Virus record (IMG/VR): IMGVR_UViG_3300049215_000479
Location: 1-55,245 of that record
Reading direction: 5' to 3' (one strand)
DNA: 55,245 bases
Source: a virus
Shown here: one piece after another, positions 3,866-55,245 of the stretch
Layout: every line of letters begins with the position of its first letter
Numbering within the stretch: position 1 is the stretch's first letter
The notes under the pieces: generated by a model
Databases searched by the model: none
Told to the model about the DNA's origin: nothing
The model's input: only the letters and a program-made list of their open reading frames with translations
Position numbers and translations under genes: made by a program

Positions 3866-4087
3866 ATGAGCAACCAGAGTGACCGCCGTGTGCCTCGCCT
3901 GACCGTCGTCGCTTCCGCCACAACGATTGAGATTCCCGACTACCTCGTCCGCGACCTCGAGAGCGCGGTGGAGGACGTCGCACGGCGGCTCGGCACCAAG
4001 CCCGACCTCGTGCGCCGGCTCGTCGAGGTCACCGTGCTGAAGCGCGGCATCGAAGCGATGCGGCGCGAAGGAGGACGGATCGCGTGA
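3866..4087 (+). CDS. Possible ribbon-helix-helix regulator
   Basis: 73 residues. A strand-like segment (TTIEIPDYLVRDLE) precedes two predicted helices (DLESAVEDVARRLG, KPDLVRRLVEVTVLKRGIEAM), the order expected of a ribbon-helix-helix DNA-binding protein. Its stop overlaps the GTG of the replication initiator, so it may regulate or accompany initiation. The fold assignment is tentative. Confidence 0.5.
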   Translation: MSNQSDRRVPRLTVVASATTIEIPDYLVRDLESAVEDVARRLGTKPDLVRRLVEVTVLKRGIEAMRREGGRIA

Positions 4088-5157
4088 CCTGGCTGAAGAT
4101 CGACGACGCCTTCGAGGACCATGCCAAGGTCGCGCCACTATCCGACGCGGCCCACCGGCTTTGGATGCGGGCCGCGTGCTGGTGCAAAAAGCCGCAGAAC
4201 CTCCACACGAACGGCTTCGTTCCGTTGGCGCTGCTCCCGACCATCGCGCGCCTACCCCTCAGGAAGGCGAAGAAGCTCGCCCAGGAGCTCGTCGACGCGA
4301 AGGGCGGTGGCATCTTCCAGCAGGGCCTCTGGGAGGCCGAGGAAGGAGGCTGGCGGTTCCACGACTGGGCGAAGTACCAGCCCGACGAGGGGCCGCCGCC
4401 GTCCGAGAGCACGCCCGTGGCGAAGTCGGAGGCCGGCCGCCTTGGAGGGCTCCGGTCCGCCGAGGTCAGGCGGGCGAAGAACGGGACCGCTCAACCGAAG
4501 CAGACCGAAGCACCACCTCGAAGCAGCCCGAAGCAAACTCCCGAAGCACCGCCGAAGCACACGTCGAACCAAGACCCGAAGCAGGGTCCGAAGCAGACGT
4601 CCGAAGCAGGCCGAAGCACGCCCGAAGCTCCCGATCCCGTTCCCGATCCGGATCCAGATCTCTCTGGAGAAGCTGCTGCTGAAGACCTGACAGCGAGCGC
4701 GCACGACGGAGCCCAGCGGCAGCAGCGGCAGGAAATCCCAGGCAGAAAAGTCCGTTGCCCGGTGCCGGTCCCTGTCGACGACGACACGCTGACGAACCTC
4801 GACCTGGGCCTCGGCATCCCACGCGACGTCGCCCTCGCAGCCCTCGCGGAGTGGTCAGTCGCGCAGGCTTCGAACGCGAGCGACGTCCGAGCGGTCGAGA
4901 TCTGGGTCAAGTGCGCCGTCCGAGCAGTCTCGGGCGACTGGAGCGATCCAGCGAAGCGCAAGCGGATGCTCGCGGCGGTGGTTGAGCAACCGAAGCGCGA
5001 TCCCGACCCCGCCGAGCAGGAGCGCCTAGCCGCCCCGCTGGCGGCCCACCGCGAACGGGCGCGGCGCGAGGCCGAGGACGCGCTCGCGAAGGCGCCTGCG
5101 GGCAACCAGGAGCCGCGGCAGGCCATCGGCGACTTCACCCGAGGGTTCGAGCGGTGA
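4084..5157 (+). CDS. Putative replication initiator protein
   Basis: 357 residues, GTG start. The N-terminal 100 residues (TWLKIDDAFEDHAKVAPLSDAAHRLWMRAACWCKK, here broken across helices) match the winged-helix start of phage replisome-organiser/initiator proteins. Residues about 138-190 are a Pro/Lys/Gln/Thr-rich linker written by the iteron DNA. The C-terminal part (about 235-300) is helical and may contact the helicase. The next gene is DnaB, overlapping by four bases, the usual initiator-helicase pair. The arrangement resembles lambda O, whose gene contains the origin. Confidence 0.7.
   Translation: MTWLKIDDAFEDHAKVAPLSDAAHRLWMRAACWCKKPQNLHTNGFVPLALLPTIARLPLRKAKKLAQELVDAKGGGIFQQGLWEAEEGGWRFHDWAKYQPDEGPPPSESTPVAKSEAGRLGGLRSAEVRRAKNGTAQPKQTEAPPRSSPKQTPEAPPKHTSNQDPKQGPKQTSEAGRSTPEAPDPVPDPDPDLSGEAAAEDLTASAHDGAQRQQRQEIPGRKVRCPVPVPVDDDTLTNLDLGLGIPRDVALAALAEWSVAQASNASDVRAVEIWVKCAVRAVSGDWSDPAKRKRMLAAVVEQPKRDPDPAEQERLAAPLAAHRERARREAEDALAKAPAGNQEPRQAIGDFTRGFER
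4495..4628 (+). repeat. Iteron cluster, candidate replication origin
   Basis: The heptamer CCGAAGC occurs exactly ten times (starts 4495, 4505, 4528, 4541, 4552, 4576, 4588, 4601, 4611, 4622), with a one-mismatch copy at 4518 and a weaker one at 4564. Start-to-start spacing is 10-13 bases, close to one helical turn. The cluster lies inside the initiator gene, as in lambdoid origins. Coding constraint alone would not keep the helical phase, although a low-complexity peptide could contribute. Confidence 0.6.
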
Positions 5158-6551
5158 CGGCGAGCCCCATGCTCCCCCACGACCTGGACGCCGAGGCCGT
5201 CGTGCTCTCGGCCATCCTGCTCGCCGGCGAGCGGCTGTACGAGGTCCAGGGCTTCCTGCGCCCGCAGGACTTCTACTCGGACGCGAACTGCTGGGTGTAT
5301 CGGGCCGTCGAGGCCGTGCAGGAGGAGACCGGTACGGTCGATATCGTCTCAGTCGCGAGCTGGCTCCGAACGCACGAGCGCCTGCACCAGGTCGGCGGCA
5401 CGCCCTACCTCGCGCAGCTGACAGACGCGATCCCCGCGACGGCGCACCTCGAGGTCCACGGCAAGCGCGTCGCCGAGCTCGCGTACCTGCGCCGCCTCAT
5501 CAACACGTTCAAGGCCCTGGCGGCCGAGGGCTATCACGCGAAGGATCCGGTCGACTTCGGTCAGCGCGCCGAGCAGCGCGTCTTCGAGCAGGCACGCTTC
5601 GTCGTGCACGAGGAGGAGGACCACACGCTCGCCGGCGTGGTCGCGCGCGTCTTCGAGGACATCACGGCGAAGTACCGTGGTGAGCCACCGTCGGCGGAGT
5701 CGGGCGGCATCGTCATACCGACGGGGATCGTCGCGCTCGACGAGAAGCTCGGCGGCGGATGGAAGGGCGGCAACAAGTACGTCATCGGCGGCCGCCCCGG
5801 CATGGGGAAGAGCGCGTTCGTCCTGCAGTGCATGGTCGCGGCGGCGCGCTACGGCTACGCCGGCATCCTCGTCTCAGCCGAGATGCCGGTGCACCAGATC
5901 GCGGTGCGCCTCCTCGCCCAGGAGACGGGCGTCACGTACCGGCGGCTCGACTCGGGCGATCTGCGGGACGAGGACTGGACACTCGTCACCGGCCAGATAG
6001 AGCGCGTCCGCGGGCTACCCATCAGCCTGGTCTACATCCCGGGCGCCACGAAGGGCGACGTGCGGGCGGCCGTGCGGCGAGAGCTCGCGAAGCTCCGGAA
6101 GGTGCACGGCGCGCAGCTCGAGCTCGGCATCATCGGGATCGACCACATCCACATCATGAACGCCGAGCGCGAGCCCGGCGAGAGCGCGGAGAGCGCCATC
6201 AGCCGGCTCTCGAAGAGCTCGCTCTGGATGGCGGGCGAGTTCAAGTGCGCCGTGCTCGAGCTCGCGCAGCTGAACCGCGCCGTCGAGAAGAAGCCCGACA
6301 AGCGCCCGGGCCTCGACGACCTTCGGCAGTCGGGCTCCCTCGAGGAGGATGCCTACGCGGTCGTGTTTCCTTTCCGCCCCGCGTACTACGACAAGGATCG
6401 GAACCAGGACGACACGCGCGACGACGTCCAGCCTGACAAGGCCGAGATCATCCTCGCGAAACACCGCAACGGCTCGACGGGGAGCGTCGAGGTCGTGTTC
6501 CACGGGCCGACCCTGCGCTTCTACGGCCTCGAGCATGGAGGCGGGCTGTGA
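5154..6551 (+). CDS. dnaB: Replicative DNA helicase (DnaB family)
   Basis: 465 residues, the usual DnaB length. The N-terminal helical domain starts PHDLDAEAVVLSAILL, the canonical opening. Walker A is GGRPGMGKS at 212-220 and the Walker B region is IIGIDHIHIM. The arginine-finger region FPFRPAYYD and the C-terminal KAEIILAKHRNGSTG signature are present. It unwinds the fork as a hexamer. It starts with GTG overlapping the initiator stop, so the two are made together. Confidence 0.95.
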   Translation: MTASPMLPHDLDAEAVVLSAILLAGERLYEVQGFLRPQDFYSDANCWVYRAVEAVQEETGTVDIVSVASWLRTHERLHQVGGTPYLAQLTDAIPATAHLEVHGKRVAELAYLRRLINTFKALAAEGYHAKDPVDFGQRAEQRVFEQARFVVHEEEDHTLAGVVARVFEDITAKYRGEPPSAESGGIVIPTGIVALDEKLGGGWKGGNKYVIGGRPGMGKSAFVLQCMVAAARYGYAGILVSAEMPVHQIAVRLLAQETGVTYRRLDSGDLRDEDWTLVTGQIERVRGLPISLVYIPGATKGDVRAAVRRELAKLRKVHGAQLELGIIGIDHIHIMNAEREPGESAESAISRLSKSSLWMAGEFKCAVLELAQLNRAVEKKPDKRPGLDDLRQSGSLEEDAYAVVFPFRPAYYDKDRNQDDTRDDVQPDKAEIILAKHRNGSTGSVEVVFHGPTLRFYGLEHGGGL

Positions 6552-6730
6552 AGGCAAAGCACCGCCGGACGTGCGCGCGGAAGTCGCGCTTCGTCACGCG
6601 CGAGCGCGCAGAGAAGACGGCCCGCATGTGGGGTCAGCACGTCTACGAGTGCGAGAACTGCGGCGGGTTCCACTGCACGAAGTCGCCGCCGCGCGCCGCC
6701 GGCGACGAAAGCGTTCGGAGGTTCAGCTGA
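6548..6730 (+). CDS. Small zinc-ribbon-like protein
   Basis: 60 residues, GTG start overlapping the helicase stop. It carries four cysteines and a histidine (CARKSR, then YECENCGGFHCTKSP) in the pattern of a small phage zinc-ribbon protein often found beside replication genes. Very basic. No activity known to me. Confidence 0.55.
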   Translation: MKAKHRRTCARKSRFVTRERAEKTARMWGQHVYECENCGGFHCTKSPPRAAGDESVRRFS

Positions 6731-6972
6731 TGTCCTGGTGGAAACGCATCTGGTGCCGGCATGAGTGGGACGTGGGCGCAGTCGTCGCGACGTCTAGGCC
6801 AAGTCTCAAGATGCGCGACTACGAGAACGTGCGCGTCAGCGGCGCGTCCATGTGGCACTTCCGCGCGCTGCTCGAGGGGACGACGACGCACCGGGTGACC
6901 TGCTCGAAGTGCGGCGCGACGGACGTGAGCACGGCGCTCGGACAGCCCGAAACAGAAAAGCCGCCCGGGTGA
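6730..6972 (+). CDS. Small Cys/His protein, unknown
   Basis: 80 residues. It begins MSWWKRIWCRHEWD and ends with HRVTCSKCGATDVS, so Cys9, His11 and the later CxxC could bind zinc. The ATG overlaps the upstream TGA. It resembles short phage proteins of unknown role. Confidence 0.5.
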   Translation: MSWWKRIWCRHEWDVGAVVATSRPSLKMRDYENVRVSGASMWHFRALLEGTTTHRVTCSKCGATDVSTALGQPETEKPPG

Positions 6973-7016
6973 GCGAGCGGCCTCCTGGTCCGTGGCGGGA
7001 CGAAGGAGGTTACCGC

Positions 7017-8138
7017 GTGGAAGACATCCTGACCAGTGGCGAGGTCGTCCAGAGTGTGAAGGGCGGTCTCGCGAAGTTCGTCCGTCTGTACCTCGACCCG
7101 TCGGACCTCGCCGCGTACGTCCGGCGCTCCCTCGGTCGCGGCGACTACCTGCAATCGATTCGCGACGGCGACACGCCGGCGTGGGAGCGCGCGTTCGCGA
7201 TGGTCGTCTCCGTCCAGGACCTTCACCGCGCCTTCGCCGGCCGCACGCGGGACGGCACGCTGAGGCGCGCCAGCATCGACGACATCCGCGAACCCGGTCC
7301 GGTGCGGCCGACCGCGTGCATCGTGCAGACGGCCCCGCCCGCGCCGCCGCCGAAGGCGCGAGCTCCGCGCGAGGAAGACCCCGCGCGCTGGCTCGCCGAG
7401 AGCGCGGGCGAATCCGGCTACACGTACGACCCGAGCTGGACGAACGGCGGGCTCTCGGCCGCCGGCGCCGACCACGACACCGACGCGGCCAAGGACGCGC
7501 GCATCGCCCGCGGGATCGACGCCTTCCGGTCCGTCGAGGGCTTCGGCGGGATCCCGGAGCTCGCCTGGTACCACTCCGCCGCGGCCTTCGAGCTCGGCAT
7601 CTCGTCGAACTTCGACGGGCTCGTGGCGGCGCTTGTGAACGGTGGCAAGCACAGCGGCTCGAACGGCTCGCCGCCGACGGGCCCCTCGGAGGACATGACG
7701 GCCGCGGCGGCGCTCCAGCGGCGGGTCATGCTCTGCCTCGGCGAGCTCCCGTGGTCGCTCCAAGTCGTGCTCGAGCTCGCGTACGCGGACCGCCGCTACC
7801 CGAACCAGCTCGTGAGCCAGTACGGCCTCGGCGTGGCGCCGCTCGTGTGGCGCGCCCAGCGTGTCGCCGGCGAGGCGCACATTGGTCCCGCGACCGTCGA
7901 TGCCCTGCAGGACATGCTCGGTGCGTACCGGTGGGACCCCGACGGGCCTGTGAAGACGCGGGCGAAGGCCTCCGCCGAGCGCCTCCTGCTCGTCGCCCAC
8001 GACGCGTACCGGGGCGTCGCCGGCATCGAGCCGCCCCGCCCCCGTGGTCCGCGCCGCCGCCGGCGGTCGCTCCGCGAGTGCGCCTCGGACGGATGCCGTG
8101 AGTTCCGCGCCGTCGAGGCCCCGTCGGAGGCGGCCTGA
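7017..8138 (+). CDS. Hypothetical protein of the replication region
   Basis: 373 residues from GTG 7017, chosen because AAGGAGG lies seven bases upstream. An earlier GTG at 6969, overlapping the previous stop, would add 16 residues. The middle is Pro/Ala-rich. Residues about 225-330 (LGELPWSLQVVLELAYADRRYPNQLVSQYG) are helical and loosely reminiscent of a sigma-like or RinA-type activator region, not convincingly. The tail is basic with two cysteines. As the last large gene before the terminase it could be a late-gene activator; that is inference from position only. Confidence 0.5.
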   Translation: MEDILTSGEVVQSVKGGLAKFVRLYLDPSDLAAYVRRSLGRGDYLQSIRDGDTPAWERAFAMVVSVQDLHRAFAGRTRDGTLRRASIDDIREPGPVRPTACIVQTAPPAPPPKARAPREEDPARWLAESAGESGYTYDPSWTNGGLSAAGADHDTDAAKDARIARGIDAFRSVEGFGGIPELAWYHSAAAFELGISSNFDGLVAALVNGGKHSGSNGSPPTGPSEDMTAAAALQRRVMLCLGELPWSLQVVLELAYADRRYPNQLVSQYGLGVAPLVWRAQRVAGEAHIGPATVDALQDMLGAYRWDPDGPVKTRAKASAERLLLVAHDAYRGVAGIEPPRPRGPRRRRRSLRECASDGCREFRAVEAPSEAA

Positions 8139-8479
8139 GCGGGGACCACCTCAGCGTCCGAGAGGTCGCCGAGGCCATCGGCTGGGACATCCGCGAGACC
8201 CGCGAGCGGCTCCATCAGCTGCAGGCGCGGCACGGCGGCCTCCTGTTCCGGGAGTCGCCGGCGAGGAACGCGAAGCTCTGGGTGCGCCGCGAGACCCTCG
8301 CGCGCGTCTGGCCGACCCGATTCGGCCCCCGTCCAGTGCAGACGGACGACATCGCCACCCTGCAGGCCCGGCTCGAGGCCATCGAGGACACGGCCGAGCG
8401 TGCCCTCTCCCTCGCCCGCTCTCTCCAGCACGAGCTCGACCGCGCCCGCGCCCGGCCCCACCCGCGTGGTCAAAAGTAG
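8134..8479 (+). CDS. Small HTH protein with coiled-coil tail, non-standard start
   Basis: The open frame reads SGDHLSVREVAEAIGWDI and continues to a TAG at 8479: a helix-turn-helix of the excisionase/MarR type followed by a helical tail (IATLQARLEAIEDTAERALSLA). No ATG, GTG or TTG occurs before the conserved part. The only candidate is a CTG at 8134, eight bases after GGAGG and overlapping the upstream stop. Either CTG is used or a base is missing. About 114 residues. Confidence 0.45.
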
Positions 8480-8670
8480 ACAGAAAGTAGGAAAAAGTAG
8501 ACGCGAAATCGCGGCACACGCGGGCGCGCGCGCGCGACGCGCGCGAGAGTTACGTGCAGGGCGGGACATCACCCGCCACGCAGAGACCCGGGAGAGCTCG
8601 CCATGCGAGGGGCGCCTGAAAGGGCGCCGAGACGGTCCCCGGGCCGGCGCCGCCGCGCTACTCTCCTTCG
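8480..8670. other. Non-coding gap with a hairpin
   Basis: About 190 bases without a convincing gene. It has near-direct repeats AAAAGTAGAC and AAAAAGTAGACG at the left, a long CG-alternating stretch (8520-8547), and a perfect hairpin at 8611-8628 (GGCGCC, loop TGAAAG, GGCGCC). No clear promoter is visible. It separates the replication and packaging modules and could hold a regulatory or packaging signal. Confidence 0.35.
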
Positions 8671-8973
8671 GTGCGCGTCGCCGGCTCGGGGATTCGAATC
8701 GACTGCCGATGCGTGCGCTGCGGCGCGGAGCGCGACATCCCGGAGGCCGACCGCCCCAGGTGGCCGGCGAGCTCGGGGGGCGACGGCGCCGTCACGGTCG
8801 AGGCCGACGCCCCGTGCCGGTGCGGCGCGACCCGCGTCCGGCTCGCCCTCGAAATCGACGATGCGACGACGAATCATCGACGTCCGAGAGCTGCGCCTCA
8901 CGCCCCGGAAGCCCGAGGTCGTGAAGGAACCGAGGACGCCGCGACTCAGCGCGACCCTCGGCGAACGCGGTAA
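8671..8973 (+). CDS. Possible zinc-binding small protein
   Basis: GTG start. Residues 12-20 contain CRCVRCGAER and residues 49-52 contain CRCGATRV, so four to six cysteines could bind zinc. After residue 65 the frame is Arg/Glu-rich and overlaps the next small gene by 113 bases, so the true end may lie near 8870. Weakly supported. Confidence 0.35.
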   Translation: MRVAGSGIRIDCRCVRCGAERDIPEADRPRWPASSGGDGAVTVEADAPCRCGATRVRLALEIDDATTNHRRPRAAPHAPEARGREGTEDAATQRDPRRTR

Positions 8974-14351: not shown

Positions 14352-14645
14352 ATGTCGAACAACACGAAGACCGACATCGACGCGAACCAGGTCGACCCCG
14401 GGCCCGACGGCGACGAGTTCGCCGTGGGCACGAGCCCGCTCGACGTCTCGAGCATCGGCGGCTACCCGGTGCGCGTCGTCATCGCCGTCGGCGCCGGCAC
14501 CGTGAAGTACACCACCGCGGGCTCGAACGGCACGGTGCGCACGGCCACCCTGGCGGATCGCGAGGTCCTCGGACCTCTGCAGATCAAGTCGATCCTCGGC
14601 TCGAGTGGCGGGACGACAGCTCCCGTCCTGCGGGTGATCAAGTGA
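14352..14645 (+). CDS. Small beta-rich head protein, unknown
   Basis: 97 residues, Gly/Thr/Val-rich with predicted strands (VRVVIAVGAGTVKYTTAG). It lies between MuF and the protease and overlaps the protease GTG. Possibly a head decoration or fibre-like protein. The 95 bases before it hold no gene. Confidence 0.5.
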   Translation: MSNNTKTDIDANQVDPGPDGDEFAVGTSPLDVSSIGGYPVRVVIAVGAGTVKYTTAGSNGTVRTATLADREVLGPLQIKSILGSSGGTTAPVLRVIK

Positions 14646-15955
14646 GCGCGCGCTGGTGCTTCGGCGTGCGCGGCGAGGGCTCGGACACCATCGAGCTCGA
14701 CGTCTACGACGTCATCGGCGAGGACTGGTGGGGCGGCGGCGTCACCGCGAAGGACGTCCGCGCCCGACTTCAGCAGAACCGGAGCGCCAAGGCCATCAAG
14801 GTCCGCATCAACTCTGCCGGCGGCGATGTCATCGACGGCCTCGCGATCTACAATCTGCTGAACGAGCACCCCGCGAAGGTCGAGGTCCAGATCGACGCGC
14901 TCGCGGCTTCGATGGCGAGCGTCATCGCGATGGCGGGCGACGAGATCCGCATCGCGAAGAACGCCTTCGTGATGATCCACAACCCGTGGGGCATCACCAT
15001 GGGCGGCGCCGACGAGATGCGCGGCATGGCGGACCTGCTCGACAAGATGCGGGCCAACCTCGCCGACATCTACGTCGCTCGCACGGGCTCGTCGCGGAAG
15101 GACGTCCTCGCCTGGATGGAGGCCGAGACCTGGATGACGGCCGACGAGGCGAAGGAGCGCGGGTTCGTCACGGCGATCACGCCGGCGAAGAAGATGGCGG
15201 CGTCCGTCGACCTCTCGATATTCACGAACGTCCCCGAGGCGCTGAAGCTTCGCGCCGTCGCGGCCGCACGCCCGACGCGCGCCGATCATCCCACGACTCC
15301 CCCGCCCGCCGGGCGGGACAACGAACCCGGCCCGGTCGGGAAGGAGACGAAGTCCATGGCACAGATCCCCACCCTCATCCTCGTTGCCCTCGCGCTGCCG
15401 GAGACGGCGGACGAGATGGCCGTCTCGAAGCGCGTCGGCGAGCTCGTGAAGCTCGAGCAGCTCACGGGCAAGACCGGTGACGACGCACTCGGCGTCGCGA
15501 AGGCCTGGAAGGAATCGCACGACGCGCTCCCGAAGGTCGCGGGCGAGCTCGCGACCGTCAAGGCGACGGCCGAGAAGGCCGAGCTCGAGACGCTCCTCAA
15601 GTCGGGGCGCGACGAAAAGAAGCTCACGAAGGCGATGGCCGACAAGCTCCGCGCGCAGGTCGAGGCCTACGCCGCGGCACGCGCCAAGGGAGAGGAGCCC
15701 CAGGGCGATGCGATGTCGCTCGCGGCCGCGAAGTCCTTCGTCGCCACGCTGCCCGTCATCGAGCGCTTGGCCGCCGAGGTCGAGGGCTCCCGAACGACGC
15801 CGGCGACGCCCGGCACCCACAACGGGAAGACCTACGAGCAGTTCACCCCGGGCGAGCTCGCCAACCTCCGCCAGGAGGAAGGCGGCGAGGAAACGTACCA
15901 GGCGCTCCGCGCGGACTGGATCCGTCGCGGCAGGCCGAAGCAGAAGGCCGCCTGA
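14642..15955 (+). CDS. ClpP-type prohead protease fused to scaffold
   Basis: 437 residues, GTG start. Residues 1-190 are a ClpP-fold serine protease: oxyanion region INSAGGDVIDG, catalytic Ser90 in ALAASMAS, catalytic His113 in FVMIHNPWG. After a Pro-rich hinge, residues 239-437 are a Mu I/Z-like scaffold ending YQALRADWIRRGRPKQKAA. It matures the prohead by cleaving scaffold and head proteins. The segment around His113 (bases 14973-15009) is the exact target of CRISPR spacer 3 of this phage. Confidence 0.9.
   Translation: MSARWCFGVRGEGSDTIELDVYDVIGEDWWGGGVTAKDVRARLQQNRSAKAIKVRINSAGGDVIDGLAIYNLLNEHPAKVEVQIDALAASMASVIAMAGDEIRIAKNAFVMIHNPWGITMGGADEMRGMADLLDKMRANLADIYVARTGSSRKDVLAWMEAETWMTADEAKERGFVTAITPAKKMAASVDLSIFTNVPEALKLRAVAAARPTRADHPTTPPPAGRDNEPGPVGKETKSMAQIPTLILVALALPETADEMAVSKRVGELVKLEQLTGKTGDDALGVAKAWKESHDALPKVAGELATVKATAEKAELETLLKSGRDEKKLTKAMADKLRAQVEAYAAARAKGEEPQGDAMSLAAAKSFVATLPVIERLAAEVEGSRTTPATPGTHNGKTYEQFTPGELANLRQEEGGEETYQALRADWIRRGRPKQKAA
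14973..15009 (+). other. Self-protospacer for CRISPR spacer 3
   Basis: These 37 bases are identical (37/37) to spacer 3 of the array at 43196-43232, read on the opposite strand. They encode Met111 to about Gly122 of the prohead protease, around catalytic His113. The plus-strand flank on the 5' side is CTTCGTGA and on the 3' side CGACGAG. No TTN-type motif abuts it in either orientation. Confidence 0.95.
15356..15955 (+). CDS. Scaffold protein from an internal start
   Basis: An in-frame ATG at 15356 follows GGGAAGGAGACG at good spacing, so the C-terminal 199 residues (MAQIPTLILVALALPETADE onward) are probably also made alone. This nested scaffold inside the protease gene is the arrangement known for lambda C/Nu3 and Mu I/Z. 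The protein is mostly helical, as expected of a scaffold. Confidence 0.65.
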   Translation: MAQIPTLILVALALPETADEMAVSKRVGELVKLEQLTGKTGDDALGVAKAWKESHDALPKVAGELATVKATAEKAELETLLKSGRDEKKLTKAMADKLRAQVEAYAAARAKGEEPQGDAMSLAAAKSFVATLPVIERLAAEVEGSRTTPATPGTHNGKTYEQFTPGELANLRQEEGGEETYQALRADWIRRGRPKQKAA

Positions 15956-18331: not shown

Positions 18332-19105
18332 GTGGCGAACCCGCTCGCCATCACGCCGCACGCGTCCGGAGCGGAGACGGCGAGCGGGATCGGGGCGTCG
18401 GTGGACATTGGTGCCCTCCGGACGGCCGTGCGCCTGCTCCTCGACGTCACCGCGATCTCTGGGACGTTCGCGACGAACCAGGGCCTCGTGGTCACCCTCG
18501 AAACCAGCGTCTCGGGCGCGGGCGGGTGGCAGCAGATCGGGGCGTTCGGGCTCAAGGCGGGACAGGGCTTCGTGGGTTTCGAAGAGCTCACGTTCGCCCG
18601 CTGCCGTCGCTTCGTGCGCGCGCGCTGGGCGATCACGGGCACCGGGCCGAGCTTCACCTTCAGCGTGAGCGGCGCCGCGCACGTCCTGTACGCGGCGCCC
18701 GAGGACCTCGGGCGGTACGCCATCAAGGACTCCGCGCTCTCGAGCCTCTCGGACGCGGCCAAGGCGGACGCGCTCCTACGCGCGACGGCGGACGCGGACG
18801 CCGCGCTGAATGCGGCGTTCACCGTGCCCATCACGGCGTGGGGTGAGGACCTCCGCGGACGCGTCGCCGATCGCGCGGCCTTCTACGCGCTCGCGACGCG
18901 GGGCTTCAACCCGAACTCGGAGGCCGACCAGATCATCGTCGCGAACGGCGGGCTCATCATGTCCGACGGCACCCGAACGGCGGTCGAGAGATGGTTCCAG
19001 GATGTCGCGACCGGCGTCTACAAGCCGCCCGAGATCGTGGACTCGACGCCTGACGTCTACGAGGCCGGCGCCTTCGTTGTGACGAACGCGAAGCGCGGTT
19101 GGTAA
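18332..19105 (+). CDS. Beta-sandwich protein with gp36-like (DUF1320-type) tail
   Basis: 257 residues, GTG start. The first 125 residues form a beta-sandwich like that of the gene at 17312. The remainder (AIKDSALSSLSDAAKADALLRATADADAALN) is a helical region resembling the Mu gp36 connector family. This looks like a fusion of a surface domain with a neck component. Tentative. Confidence 0.5.
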   Translation: MANPLAITPHASGAETASGIGASVDIGALRTAVRLLLDVTAISGTFATNQGLVVTLETSVSGAGGWQQIGAFGLKAGQGFVGFEELTFARCRRFVRARWAITGTGPSFTFSVSGAAHVLYAAPEDLGRYAIKDSALSSLSDAAKADALLRATADADAALNAAFTVPITAWGEDLRGRVADRAAFYALATRGFNPNSEADQIIVANGGLIMSDGTRTAVERWFQDVATGVYKPPEIVDSTPDVYEAGAFVVTNAKRGW

Positions 19106-25246: not shown

Positions 25247-25777
25247 GTGGCGGTCCCCGATTGGATCAGCTCGAGCGACTGGGACGACCTCTACCTCGCC
25301 GGCGCGAAGATGCCCGGCGTCGCCCGCGTCTCGATCAGCCTGCCGACCGGCGTCGACGTGAAGAAGCCGAAGGGCGGCAGGCGCGCGAAGCTCCGCGACT
25401 GCGGCGCGCCGCCCTGCAAGATCCGGATCCAGCTCGAGCTCATGCCGGACGAGCTCCCGGAGTTCGAGGCCGAGGTCGTGCCGCTGCTTCGGCCGCGCGC
25501 GGCCGACGGTCTCAGCGACCCCGTCGAGATCGCGCACCCCAACGCGCGCCTCTGGGGCGTGCACGTGATCGTGGTCGAAGAGGTGGACGCGCCGCACCCT
25601 GACGCGGGTGACAGCCTGAAGGTGTCGTTCAACGCGCGCGAGTGGGCGCCGCAGCCGACCAAGGTCGGCAAGGGCACCGACAAGCCCAAGGACGACGGCT
25701 CGGACGACTGGAACGTCCAGCCACTGATCGACCGGCTCCGGCCGAAGCGCGCCGGCGCCGCGGCCGCGAACTTCTGA
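25247..25777 (+). CDS. Baseplate/tail protein (DNA circularisation or LysM position)
   Basis: 176 residues, GTG start one base after the tape measure stop. The core (CKIRIQLELMPDELPEFEAEVVPLL, in part) and GVHVIVVEEVDAPHP are beta-alpha-like. It sits where Mu-like phages carry the tail adaptor between tape measure and hub. No certain family. Confidence 0.5.
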   Translation: MAVPDWISSSDWDDLYLAGAKMPGVARVSISLPTGVDVKKPKGGRRAKLRDCGAPPCKIRIQLELMPDELPEFEAEVVPLLRPRAADGLSDPVEIAHPNARLWGVHVIVVEEVDAPHPDAGDSLKVSFNAREWAPQPTKVGKGTDKPKDDGSDDWNVQPLIDRLRPKRAGAAAANF

Positions 25778-26436
25778 TGCGCCTCATCACCTGCAACGCC
25801 CTCCCGGTGCTCGGGCTCCGCCTGATGCTCCCGCGGACAGGCGTGTGGACCGCTGCGCTCGAGCTCGATGCCGAAGAGGCCGTCACGGGCGCCGTCGAGA
25901 TCCTCGACGAGGGCGTGTCGTACGTCGGAACGGTCGTGAGCTCGGGCGTGCTCGCCGGCGTGTGCCGGGCCGAGGTCGTCGGCGGCGCCGGCGGGTTCCG
26001 GAAGGACGTGCCGTCGAGGTCGTACGTCGGCGTCACCGCCCGGACCGTGCTCGCCGACCTCATGGCCGCCGTGGGCGAGCGTCTCGATGCCCAGGCGACG
26101 CGCACCGTCCTCGCCGCAGCGCTACCGTACTGGACGCGGGCCGCGGGCCGCGCAGGCACGGCCATGCAGGACCTCGCGGACGCCCTGGGCGCCTCCTGGC
26201 GCGTGCTGCCAGGAGGCAATGTCTGGATGGGCCAGGAGCTCTGGAGCGAGGCCGAGGAGGGCATCGGCGGGGTCGAGATGGACCGCGACGACGGCGCCGG
26301 CACGGTCGTCCTCGCGCCCGACACCATCGGGCTCGCGCCGGGCGTCACCCTCGAGGGGCGCCGGGTCGGTCGGGTCGAGCACTTCTTCGCCCGCGAGGCG
26401 CCCCTCCGGACGACCTTCTGGGTCGAGGCCGCATGA
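25777..26436 (+). CDS. Baseplate hub-like protein
   Basis: 219 residues. The region VGVTARTVLADLMAAVGERL followed by QDLADALGASWRVLPGGNVW is typical of hub proteins (gp27/Mu gp44 type), in which a domain is inserted between barrel halves; here the protein is short. ATG overlaps the previous stop. Bases 26238-26274, encoding about Glu154 to Val166, nearly match CRISPR spacer 2. Confidence 0.6.
   Translation: MRLITCNALPVLGLRLMLPRTGVWTAALELDAEEAVTGAVEILDEGVSYVGTVVSSGVLAGVCRAEVVGGAGGFRKDVPSRSYVGVTARTVLADLMAAVGERLDAQATRTVLAAALPYWTRAAGRAGTAMQDLADALGASWRVLPGGNVWMGQELWSEAEEGIGGVEMDRDDGAGTVVLAPDTIGLAPGVTLEGRRVGRVEHFFAREAPLRTTFWVEAA
26238..26274 (+). other. Near-match protospacer for CRISPR spacer 2
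   Basis: 35 of 37 bases equal spacer 2 (43123-43159) in the same orientation; differences are at spacer positions 26 (A here, G in spacer) and 37 (C here, T in spacer). In the reading frame these are an Ile-to-Val change and a synonymous change, so the spacer looks copied from a homologous gene of a related phage. Confidence 0.9.
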
Positions 26437-36412: not shown

Positions 36413-38422
36413 ATGCGACGAATCCTACCGCTCATCCTTGCCGCCCTCGCGGCCGTCCAGTGCACGTACGTCACCGAGGAGCACCGTCAGCTCGGCGCGT
36501 CCTCGTGCTGCACGGGCTGCTCGACCGACGCCGCGCATCCCGTCGAGGCCGGGCCGGACGCCCTCGTCGACGTCCACGAGGCTGGTCGCGACGTCGCGGT
36601 CGAGGCCGCGCGGGAGGCCGGCAGTGAGGCAGCGGCCGAAGCTGGCGCCGAAGCGTCGGCAGGAGCCGGTCACGACGCTGCACTCGAGGCGGAGACCAGC
36701 GCAGGCGGCGCTCCCGGTGCAGGCGGCGCGGGCGCCGGCGGCACTCCAGGCGCGGGGGGCGCGATCGTCGTCGACCCATGCGCGAACGGCGTGCGAGACG
36801 GCGCCGAGACGGACATCGACTGCGGCGGAGGGACGTGCCCCGCGTGTGCGCCGGGCTACGGGTGCCTGCTCACGACGGACTGCCAGCCATACCCAGGCGA
36901 CGCCGCCGGATCGATGCGATGCGTGGTTGCACCGGATTCGCGCACCCCCACCGGCCGCGAGTGCAACCCGATCGACTATCTGTGGTTCGTGGTGCAGGAA
37001 AACCGCACCTTTGACAACTACTTCTGGGGCTATCCGGGCGCAGACAGCGTCGCGCCGGCCGCGATGTGCGCGCCTGATCCGCGCACGGGCACGTGCGTGG
37101 CGCCCTTCGAGACGCCGATCGACTCGGACTCGGATTGCCCGCACCTGAAGGGGAATCTCGTCGCCGACCTCGACGGCGGCGCACTCGACGGTTTCGTGCA
37201 GCAGGACGAGATCCCCGGCACCACGATCGCGATTGCAGGCATCACGAACGCGAGCCCGATCGTCGTCACGACGACGGCCGCGCACGGGTTCTCGACGGGC
37301 GATACGGTGTGGCTCAAGAACACGAACGCGAACACGGCCGCGGGTGGATTTCACAAAATCACGGTGCTCTCCACAACCTCGTTCGCGCTCGACGGGACGT
37401 CGGGCAACGGCATCTACAGCGGCTCGGCGGCTCGCGTAGGGAAGGTCACCCGGTGCTCGGACCCGCAGGTCGCGGGGTGCAACAGGACGTGCATGGGGCA
37501 CCACCCGGCACGGCAGGCGTACACGCTGTGGGCCGCCGCAGACTGGGGCGTGCTACATGATCGGATGTTCGAGGGGCTGAACGACTACTCTGCGCCGTCC
37601 CACGCGGCGATTTGGTCCGGGGCGATCATGGGATGCCCTGCCGGCGACTCCAACCCGATGCACTGCACCGCGAGCACGGCGACGCTCGCCGACACCTACA
37701 ACGGTGCGTGGACCGACGTCTCGTTCATCCTGCATCGTGGCGGTGTCTCGTGGCGCTACTACCGCGCGCAGGGCGCTGCGACCGGGTGCCGATCGGGGTT
37801 CGGTGAATGCCCGTCGGTGCAGCCGAACATCGTGACCGCGATCTGGAACGCGCCCGCGCAGTTCATCGACGTGGACGAAGACGGCGAGCGCGACTTAGAC
37901 CACAACCCGGATAGCTTCGCCCGCTTCTACGCGGACACGGCGAGCGGCGGTAGCCCCGCACACGTGAATTGGATCGCGCCGGGCGTGAACGTAAGCGAGC
38001 ACCCGACCTCGCTGATCAGCTCCGGTCAGAACTACCTCGCCGCGCTCCTCAATCGCATCGGCGGCTCACCGATCTGGCAGCGGTCCGCAGTGTTCGTTTT
38101 CTACGACGACACCGGCGGTTTTTTCGACCACGTTCCGCCGCCCACCGTGGACGCGAAGGGTTACGGGATGCGCGTGCCGAGCGTGATGATCTCGCCGTAC
38201 GCCCGCGCCGGGTTTGTAGACCATCAGGTGTTGAGCTTCGACGCCCACCTCAAGCTGGCGGAAGACATCATGCTCGACGGCCAGCGCATCGATCCGCTCA
38301 CGGACGGGCGCCCCGATCCGCGCACGACCGTGCGGGAGAACGCGGCGATCCTGGGTGACCTACTCCGGGACTTCGATTTCCGGCAGGCCCCGAGGTCGGC
38401 GCCTTTTTTCGTGCAGCACTGA
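36413..38422 (+). CDS. Phosphoesterase (phospholipase C-family) lipoprotein with inserted phage domain
   Basis: 669 residues. Signal peptide with lipobox AAVQC (Cys17), an Ala/Glu then Gly-rich linker, and a Cys motif at 123-145 (CANGVRDGAETDIDCGGGTC) typical of Myxococcota surface proteins. The phosphoesterase domain opens WFVVQENRTFDNYFWGYPGA (about 191-210) and later has FVFYDDTGGFFDHVPPP, both marks of the PF04185 family of phospholipases and acid phosphatases. Residues about 270-345 (ITNASPIVVTTTAAHGFSTG onward) are an inserted beta domain of the FCCH type seen in phage tail proteins. It lies between fibres and the lysis cassette and may attack host lipids at entry or exit. Confidence 0.75.
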   Translation: MRRILPLILAALAAVQCTYVTEEHRQLGASSCCTGCSTDAAHPVEAGPDALVDVHEAGRDVAVEAAREAGSEAAAEAGAEASAGAGHDAALEAETSAGGAPGAGGAGAGGTPGAGGAIVVDPCANGVRDGAETDIDCGGGTCPACAPGYGCLLTTDCQPYPGDAAGSMRCVVAPDSRTPTGRECNPIDYLWFVVQENRTFDNYFWGYPGADSVAPAAMCAPDPRTGTCVAPFETPIDSDSDCPHLKGNLVADLDGGALDGFVQQDEIPGTTIAIAGITNASPIVVTTTAAHGFSTGDTVWLKNTNANTAAGGFHKITVLSTTSFALDGTSGNGIYSGSAARVGKVTRCSDPQVAGCNRTCMGHHPARQAYTLWAAADWGVLHDRMFEGLNDYSAPSHAAIWSGAIMGCPAGDSNPMHCTASTATLADTYNGAWTDVSFILHRGGVSWRYYRAQGAATGCRSGFGECPSVQPNIVTAIWNAPAQFIDVDEDGERDLDHNPDSFARFYADTASGGSPAHVNWIAPGVNVSEHPTSLISSGQNYLAALLNRIGGSPIWQRSAVFVFYDDTGGFFDHVPPPTVDAKGYGMRVPSVMISPYARAGFVDHQVLSFDAHLKLAEDIMLDGQRIDPLTDGRPDPRTTVRENAAILGDLLRDFDFRQAPRSAPFFVQH

Positions 38423-42860: not shown

Positions 42861-42884
42861 TACCGGCCTCCTCCTGCCGGTGCA

Positions 42885-42922
42885 CGCCGCCTCGGTCCTC
42901 ACGGACTGGGGCGGCGTTTTTT
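42885..42922 (+). terminator. Strong intrinsic terminator of the late operon
   Basis: CGCCGCCTCGGTCC pairs with GGACTGGGGCGGCG around the loop TCAC, followed by TTTTTT at 42917-42922. It closes the 34-kb rightward late transcript and separates it from the CRISPR array. Confidence 0.9.
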
Positions 42923-42986: not shown

Positions 42987-43013
42987 GCCGAGGAAACTCG
43001 CGTGGGGCTCGTC
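42987..43013 (-). repeat. Degenerate CRISPR-repeat-like segment
   Basis: On the minus strand this 27-base piece keeps the repeat's 3' end (GTTTCCTCGGC) and a CCCACG block but lacks about nine bases of the loop. It abuts the last perfect repeat with no spacer between. It may be a decayed terminal repeat or the target sequence at which the array was founded. The minus-strand frame here also reads as a short peptide (GYARPIQVGDVIEVSGGIG). Confidence 0.45.
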
Positions 43014-43268
43014 GCCGAGGAAACAACGCCTCCTCGTGGGCACTGAGACCCCGTGTGTGCACACGCGGCGTTCACGTCATGCGACGGCCGAGGAAACAAC
43101 GCCTCCTCGTGGGCACTGAGACGCTCTGGAGCGAGGCCGAGGAGGGCGTCGGCGGGGTTGCCGAGGAAACAACGCCTCCTCGTGGGCACTGAGACGCGCC
43201 GCCCATGGTGATGCCCCACGGGTTGTGGATCAGCCGAGGAAACAACGCCTCCTCGTGGGCACTGAGAC
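43014..43268 (-). CRISPR. Mini-CRISPR array: four repeats, three spacers
   Basis: Four identical 36-base repeats (43014-43049, 43087-43122, 43160-43195, 43233-43268) beginning GCCGAGGAAAC and ending GGGCACTGAGAC on the plus strand, with three spacers of exactly 37 bases (43050-43086, 43123-43159, 43196-43232). Repeat arms CGAGGA and TCCTCG form a 6-bp stem. On the minus strand that hairpin lies at the repeat's 3' end, next to the spacer, as in type V crRNA handles. The degenerate copy at the left and the effector at the right both favour leftward transcription. Spacer 3 matches 14973-15009 exactly; spacer 2 matches 26238-26274 at 35/37; no match to spacer 1 was seen in this window. Confidence 0.96.
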
Positions 43269-43339
43269 AGATGTCCTAGCACGACATGTCTTTCGCGCTC
43301 TTGCGATCCGGTTTGCGAGCGGTCCCTCTTCGCATGCGC
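43269..43339. other. Leader-like gap between effector and array
   Basis: 71 bases. Next to the first transcribed repeat is a small inverted repeat (ATGTC, loop CTAGCAC, GACAT; 43271-43287). No independent promoter is obvious, so the array is probably read through from the effector gene. Confidence 0.4.
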
Positions 43340-54917: not shown

Positions 54918-55245
54918 ATGCCCCCCGTGCTCGATGAACTGATCAGGAAGACCATCGGCGCCGTCGAAAGCGTCGCGCCGAAGGCCTGGGACCTGATGGT
55001 CCGGGCTGAACGGATCGATGCAACGGTGACGCTTGCGCAAGAGGCGCTCGGCGTCGCCGCATTCGTCGCGGCAGCGCTCGTGCTGTTGCGCTTCGGAAAG
55101 AGCGCCAAGGACTCCGATGACAGGGTCTCCGGGGCGCTCCGGCAAGCAGGAGCCCATGAACGAATCCACGAAGGTGCAGGCCGTCGCCTCGGAACCCGAA
55201 CCTGTGAGCGAGGTGCGGCTGCAGCCGCCGCGCGCGTGGCTCGGC
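54918..55245 (+). CDS. Membrane protein, runs to window edge
   Basis: Starts MPPVLDELIRKTIGAVESVA; one hydrophobic segment at about residues 49-61 (GVAAFVAAALVLL). The frame stays open to the window end but after about residue 75 it is Arg/Ala-rich and overlaps the next start, so the real stop may be obscured by a frameshift. Confidence 0.4.
   Translation, partial: MPPVLDELIRKTIGAVESVAPKAWDLMVRAERIDATVTLAQEALGVAAFVAAALVLLRFGKSAKDSDDRVSGALRQAGAHERIHEGAGRRLGTRTCERGAAAAAARVAR
55156..55245 (+). CDS. 5' end of a gene cut by the window edge
   Basis: ATG with AGGAG upstream; reads MNESTKVQAVASEPEPVSEV and continues off the end. If the molecule is circular, the frame would continue at base 1 and stop at 55-57 after 18 more codons, giving a 48-residue protein. 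Function unknown. Confidence 0.4.
   Translation, partial: MNESTKVQAVASEPEPVSEVRLQPPRAWLG

Follow-up and report, generated by a model that had tools for sequence, protein, structure and literature searches.

The window, as we call the whole stretch of 55,245 bases analysed here, is one linear IMG/VR virus record of 70% G+C. It carries phage genes for DnaB, terminase, portal, head protease, capsid, tape measure, baseplate J and an endolysin, together with a weak match for the sheath initiator; no tRNA genes were present in the window, the tyrosine and large serine recombinase families tried had no match there, and no integrase was found. A rightward structural operon extends to a terminator-like hairpin, and a leftward block running from 51665 to 43340 contains an exonuclease and ends with a CRISPR effector gene. 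From their gene content, the leftward block is probably early and the rightward structural genes are probably late. The end of the leftward block appears to hold a minimal type V-M-like system, composed of a putatively nuclease-dead Cas12m-like effector and a three-spacer array (Table 1). Neither Cas1 nor Cas2 had a match in the window, with positive controls, and the locus is thus not an autonomous adaptive CRISPR-Cas system.

Table 1. Features of the CRISPR locus and of the sites in the window that match its spacers
Feature	Position	Strand	Remark
Target gene: ClpP-like head maturation protease, 437 aa, Ser-His type	14642..15955	+	PHROG 94, E 8e-79
PAM position of protospacer 3: TGA, not TTN	14970..14972	+	TTA if GTG were GTT (both Val)
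Protospacer 3, exact match to guide 3	14973..15009	+	37/37
Gene with protospacer 2, 219 aa, without family match	25777..26436	+	tail gene by position after tape measure
Protospacer 2, match to guide 2	26238..26274	-	35/37, guide mismatched at positions 1 and 12
PAM position of protospacer 2: CTC on minus	26275..26277	-	TTC if GAG were GAA (both Glu)
Terminator-like hairpin downstream of array	42862..42881	-	
Terminator-like hairpin, 15 pairs, end of rightward operon	42884..42917	+	
Degenerate, shortened repeat-like stretch abutting last repeat	42987..43013	-	common at far array ends
CRISPR array, four identical 36-nt repeats and three 37-nt spacers	43014..43268	read from -	
Spacer 1, without self match above chance	43050..43086	-	best 23/37
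Spacer 2, self match	43123..43159	-	35/37
Spacer 3, first after effector	43196..43232	-	exact self match
Effector stop to first repeat; leader position if read from minus	43269..43339	-	putative function
Effector, Cas12m-like, 647 aa	43340..45283	-	PADLOC Cas12u1 E 4e-32

The homology of the effector was absent from the first-pass annotation of this DNA, and it places a Cas12m (type V-M) homologue directly beside the array. The best PADLOC model, Cas12u1, is followed closely by Cas12f (E 2e-31), comparison with solved Cas12m gave an E-value of 8e-15, and the Cas12m/V-U1 homology is that of type V-M. A fold model built from the single sequence was useless (pLDDT 39), while a model built with three relatives was fair (mean pLDDT 60); the hits of the predicted fold below 0.001 were four Cas12m structures only (8hhl, 8pm4, 8hhm and 8hio). 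Catalytic residues were read by alignment to MsCas12m, phage Rctr197k and 23vw. E384 stands in place of the RuvC-I aspartate, the RuvC-II glutamate is lost (G567 or A573, by alignment), and the RuvC-III segment is absent together with its aspartate, so that none of the described kinds of triad (D-E-D, H-D-D or N-D-D) is present. No CxxC pair of a zinc finger (TNB domain) was found in the protein, which ends before that position, and 71 nt separate its stop from the array; a frameshift concealing the zinc finger was considered and rejected, as none is found in the other frames. The third-position G+C of the effector gene is 0.80, compared with 0.92-0.97 in most of the phage genes checked, which suggests later acquisition.

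Cas12m proteins bind DNA in a PAM-dependent manner without cutting it and block phages and plasmids (PMC11013384, PMC10442227), and transcription is silenced by Cas12m (PMC10442227). The proposal made at first pass that the effector is of a non-cutting kind is therefore well supported, both by this property of the family and by the missing RuvC acidic residues, zinc finger and RuvC-III. DNA binding by the truncated effector is a plausible prediction from sequence, made less certain by the part that the RuvC pocket of Cas12m2 itself plays in holding DNA (PMC10442227).

The repeats of the array start at 43014, 43087, 43160 and 43233. The strand from which they are read was assessed with a covariance model built from 14 V-M repeats in gene orientation, taken from MsCas12m, phage Rctr197k, a Pelobacter plasmid and two virus records, L008 (IMGVR_UViG_3300006854_000001) and L007 (IMGVR_UViG_3300024243_000005). 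These repeats have in common a 6-bp helix directly before the spacer that is 96% paired, with two-sided changes at 5/6 pairs. On the repeats of the window the model scored 18.8 bits for the minus strand versus 6.6 bits for the plus strand, and its best sites in the window are the minus-strand repeats; the E-value across the whole window is modest (0.021), and the contrast between strands is clear. The next-ranking site after the array is a lone minus-strand stretch at 55053-55089 (14.7 bits, E 0.18), which may be a chance hit or a single repeat. In relatives the array lies downstream of the effector gene in the same direction, and the minus strand is the strand of the effector here, so that the locus shares with type V-M both the helix adjoining the spacer and the array that is co-directional with the effector. 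The crRNAs are therefore likely to be transcribed from the minus strand, co-directionally with the effector, and the covariance model, the effector strand, the layout in relatives and the hairpin at 42862-42881 together give the guide order spacer 3, 2, 1. A plus-strand reading, taken at first because the repeat ends in CTGAGAC on that strand as in the relatives, was rejected, since the covariance model, the location of the array and the terminator-like hairpin on the minus strand all speak against it. The direction matters because it shifts the mismatches of spacer 2 from guide positions 26 and 37 to positions 1 and 12.

Along this order the self match falls from 37/37 to 35/37 and then to none, and if new spacers enter beside the effector, as is usual for leaders, the order 3, 2, 1 would run from newest to oldest. 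The first-pass annotation had reported an exact match between the head protease gene at 14973-15009 and the reverse complement of spacer 3, and this was reproduced base for base over all 37/37 positions. The protospacer spans the codons for MIHNPWGITMGGA, which include His113 as had been stated, and its placement within the rightward head operon, with the capsid gene downstream, agrees with the family matches. A second self match, absent from the earlier annotation, was found between spacer 2 and a putative tail gene (35/37 at 26238-26274). Chance was rejected as the origin of these matches: the expected number with three spacers in the window is ~4e-15 for 37/37 and ~2e-11 for 35/37, the best of 300 shuffled spacers reached 27/37, and the best of 600 37-mers taken from two other phages reached 28/37. 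Guide 3 has the sequence of the protease coding strand, and its pairing partner would be the template strand, while in the tail gene guide 2 would pair with the coding strand; the two guides thus target opposite strands. Relative to the phage's own tail gene, spacer 2 carries one silent and one Ile/Val change. In Cas12m2, 17 bp of the guide are paired, and guide 2 is therefore imperfect where it counts and guide 3 perfect.

The TTN PAM of characterised Cas12m proteins, which may not be the PAM of this effector, is absent at 2/2 own sites, and a search for a PAM common to both own sites gave none in either direction. TTN is present at 2% of sites in this 70% G+C genome; most sites lack it, and its absence alone therefore says little. 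Both own sites are one synonymous change away from TTN. Such positions make up 10.3% of coding positions, and both sites would be so placed by chance at ~1%; we give little weight to this argument, which was made post hoc and with a PAM that may not be the one used here.

The account that we regard as moderately probable is that the system forms an RNA-guided roadblock against close relatives, a case of heterotypic superinfection exclusion in which the self match is a by-product and the carrier is spared by PAM and mismatch. The crRNAs would be loaded onto the effector early in infection, and the complex would settle on the late structural operon (head protease and tail gene) of co-infecting or superinfecting close relatives, where transcription would be blocked by the roadblock and not by cutting. 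The spacers would match the carrier because the source phages were ~97% identical to it at these sites (72/74 positions over spacers 2 and 3), and the carrier's own copies would probably escape because neither site has a TTN PAM and because guide 2 has two mismatches within its paired stretch. Since the effector cannot cut, leftover binding to self would be tolerable, which would explain the persistence of a perfect self spacer. The first-pass annotation had left the silencing target as the late operon of this phage or that of relatives; the spacer 2 mismatches and the lack of TTN at both own sites favour relatives. The two differences in spacer 2 fit a homologous gene in a relative and both lie inside the 17-bp part paired in Cas12m2, and the choice of relatives as target draws in addition on the precedents of viral mini-arrays, on phage spacers directed at structural genes of other phages (PMC7162821) and on the 30/34 self match found in L008. 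Against a roadblock on relatives, spacer 3 is perfect over its whole length, unlike the pattern in SPV1 and SPV2, no relative with the protospacers was found in the collections searched, and the roadblock depends on predicted DNA binding by a protein that lacks the zinc finger and RuvC-III.

The same components could instead regulate the phage itself. The dead effector with crRNA 3, and more weakly with crRNA 2, would then bind the phage's own late operon as an RNA-guided repressor and would delay or dampen the expression of head and tail genes during early infection or dormancy, and a resident phage of this kind would block identical superinfecting phages as well. The guide nearest the effector does match exactly, both matches lie in one rightward structural operon, the effector is unable to cut, Cas12m silences transcription (PMC10442227), and a phage-encoded RNA-guided repressor, TldR, is known (PMC13418256). 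We nevertheless consider autoregulation unlikely: no PAM is common to the two own sites, guide 2 has mismatches (positions 1 and 12) and would target the strand opposite to that of guide 3, spacer 1 has no own target, the targets are within genes and not at promoters, and a dormant state is not supported since no integrase was found. Ranked next after it, and likewise doubtful, is accidental self-acquisition, in which the spacers were taken from the replicating DNA of the phage itself by host Cas1-Cas2 acting in trans; they would be retained because the sites are either not cut or not recognised by the effector. Since the record holds neither Cas1 nor Cas2, new spacers must come from elsewhere, and neither own site has the known Cas12m PAM; the two differences in spacer 2 point rather to another phage or to older drift, and the matched genes are both structural, although structural genes occupy much of the genome. 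An assembly artefact is very unlikely. In its favour, the contig is one linear-ended virus record from a metagenome; the joining of two phages at the match site had been named at first pass as an explanation that would undo the observation, and a false link through the shared 37-mer would be another. Against it, the protease frame and its family match run uninterrupted across the site, the array shows no break, and a second place on this contig is matched independently by spacer 2.

Relatives carrying the protospacers were sought in IMG/VR, in phage records and in a GTDB repeat scan, where none close was found and where near records may be absent. Among the collections searched, no relative exceeded ~51% amino acid identity at the protease and none was close at the DNA level. 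In protease homologues at 40-50% amino acid identity spacer 3 matched at up to 31/37 positions, and the part of spacer 3 encoding the conserved MIHNPW is common to distant Vibrio phages across 20 nt. A 19-nt match in record L119 was rejected as a relative, being a chance match in a different gene.

The locus resembles the type V-M systems MmCas12m2, GoCas12m and MsCas12m (PMC10442227, PMC11013384) in effector homology and predicted fold, in 36-nt repeats with a spacer-side helix, in an array that follows the effector on its strand, in the lack of adjacent Cas1 and Cas2 and, as predicted, in the lack of cutting. Unlike those systems, it is carried by a phage and has spacers that match the genome of its own carrier, and its effector has no zinc finger or RuvC-III and has lost the RuvC triad instead of showing a variant of it. 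The mini-arrays of SPV1 and SPV2 likewise place few spacers on a virus; they match genes shared with close relatives, as is proposed here, and superinfection exclusion has been suggested for them, the carrier's own sites being changed (PMC6858448; reviewed in PMC11656645). These arrays rely on Cas proteins of the host, and mutation or deletion has altered the sites in the carrier (PMC6858448), whereas the phage described here encodes its own effector and has one perfectly matching own site. Mini-array 1 of Chiyouvirus, from viruses of Bathyarchaeia, also has four repeats, three spacers and two self matches, and its role was unclear to its authors; both of its self matches are 100%, compared with 37/37 and 35/37 here, its repeats are identical to those of the host, and no self-encoded non-cutting effector was described (PMC10848311). 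A perfect self spacer is unusual, yet it has this precedent.

TldR uses one dedicated guide RNA, not a CRISPR array. It is, like the effector described here, a phage-encoded nuclease-dead relative of TnpB/Cas12, and it acts as an RNA-guided repressor that regulates host flagellin (PMC13418256). Huge phages also carry arrays with type V effectors, including Cas14 without one catalytic residue, and the sections of that report drawn on here suggest repression without cutting and spacers aimed at structural genes of other phages; those genomes are mostly > 200 kb, and a self match of the carrier is not among the features described in those sections (PMC7162821). Virus-borne arrays are thought to avoid their own carrier, and a perfect self spacer next to a putatively non-cutting effector encoded by the virus itself permits a direct test of this view: whether non-cutting effectors relax the constraint on self-targeting, whether self and near-self can be told apart by PAM alone, and whether virus-borne CRISPR systems can turn into regulators. 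If the truncated effector binds DNA, it would show what share of the Cas12 nuclease lobe may be dispensable in a natural binder. Autoregulation, the more novel reading, would if true mean that CRISPR serves this virus not as immunity but as a built-in switch for timing and as a homotypic block to superinfection.

Several other virus records carry related loci. L008 (135 kb) encodes at 3969-7160 a phage Cas12m with a RuvC-I asparagine and > 20 spacers, one of which matches its own record 30/34 at 18417 with two mismatches within the first 17 nt. L007 (180 kb) encodes at 4851-8110 a Cas12m-like gene with a zinc finger, followed by an array of ~28 units of ~47 nt, and the same gene and array are found in two further records, L005 and L006; the L007 repeats are ~28 nt and strongly diverged, with a covarying spacer-side helix, its spacers are only ~16-22 nt, and no self match above chance was found in the record. 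The gene annotated as "similar to transposase" in phage Rctr197k (L002, KX853510.1) encodes an intact Cas12m-like effector with D-E-D and a zinc finger, and the loci at 187-441 and 5503-8970 comprise a 22-repeat array beside the effector and a second array with a different repeat ~5 kb away; self matches above chance were absent from this phage. No relative of the effector was confirmed among genome contigs. A cut-off effector relative of ~30% identity lies at 4376-5948 of L004 (IMGVR_UViG_3300043811_000107), where it adjoins a small Asp/Ser-rich lipoprotein-like gene that recalls the gene at 36413-38422 of the window. L004 and the phage described here may be from similar hosts, which we take to be perhaps Myxococcota.
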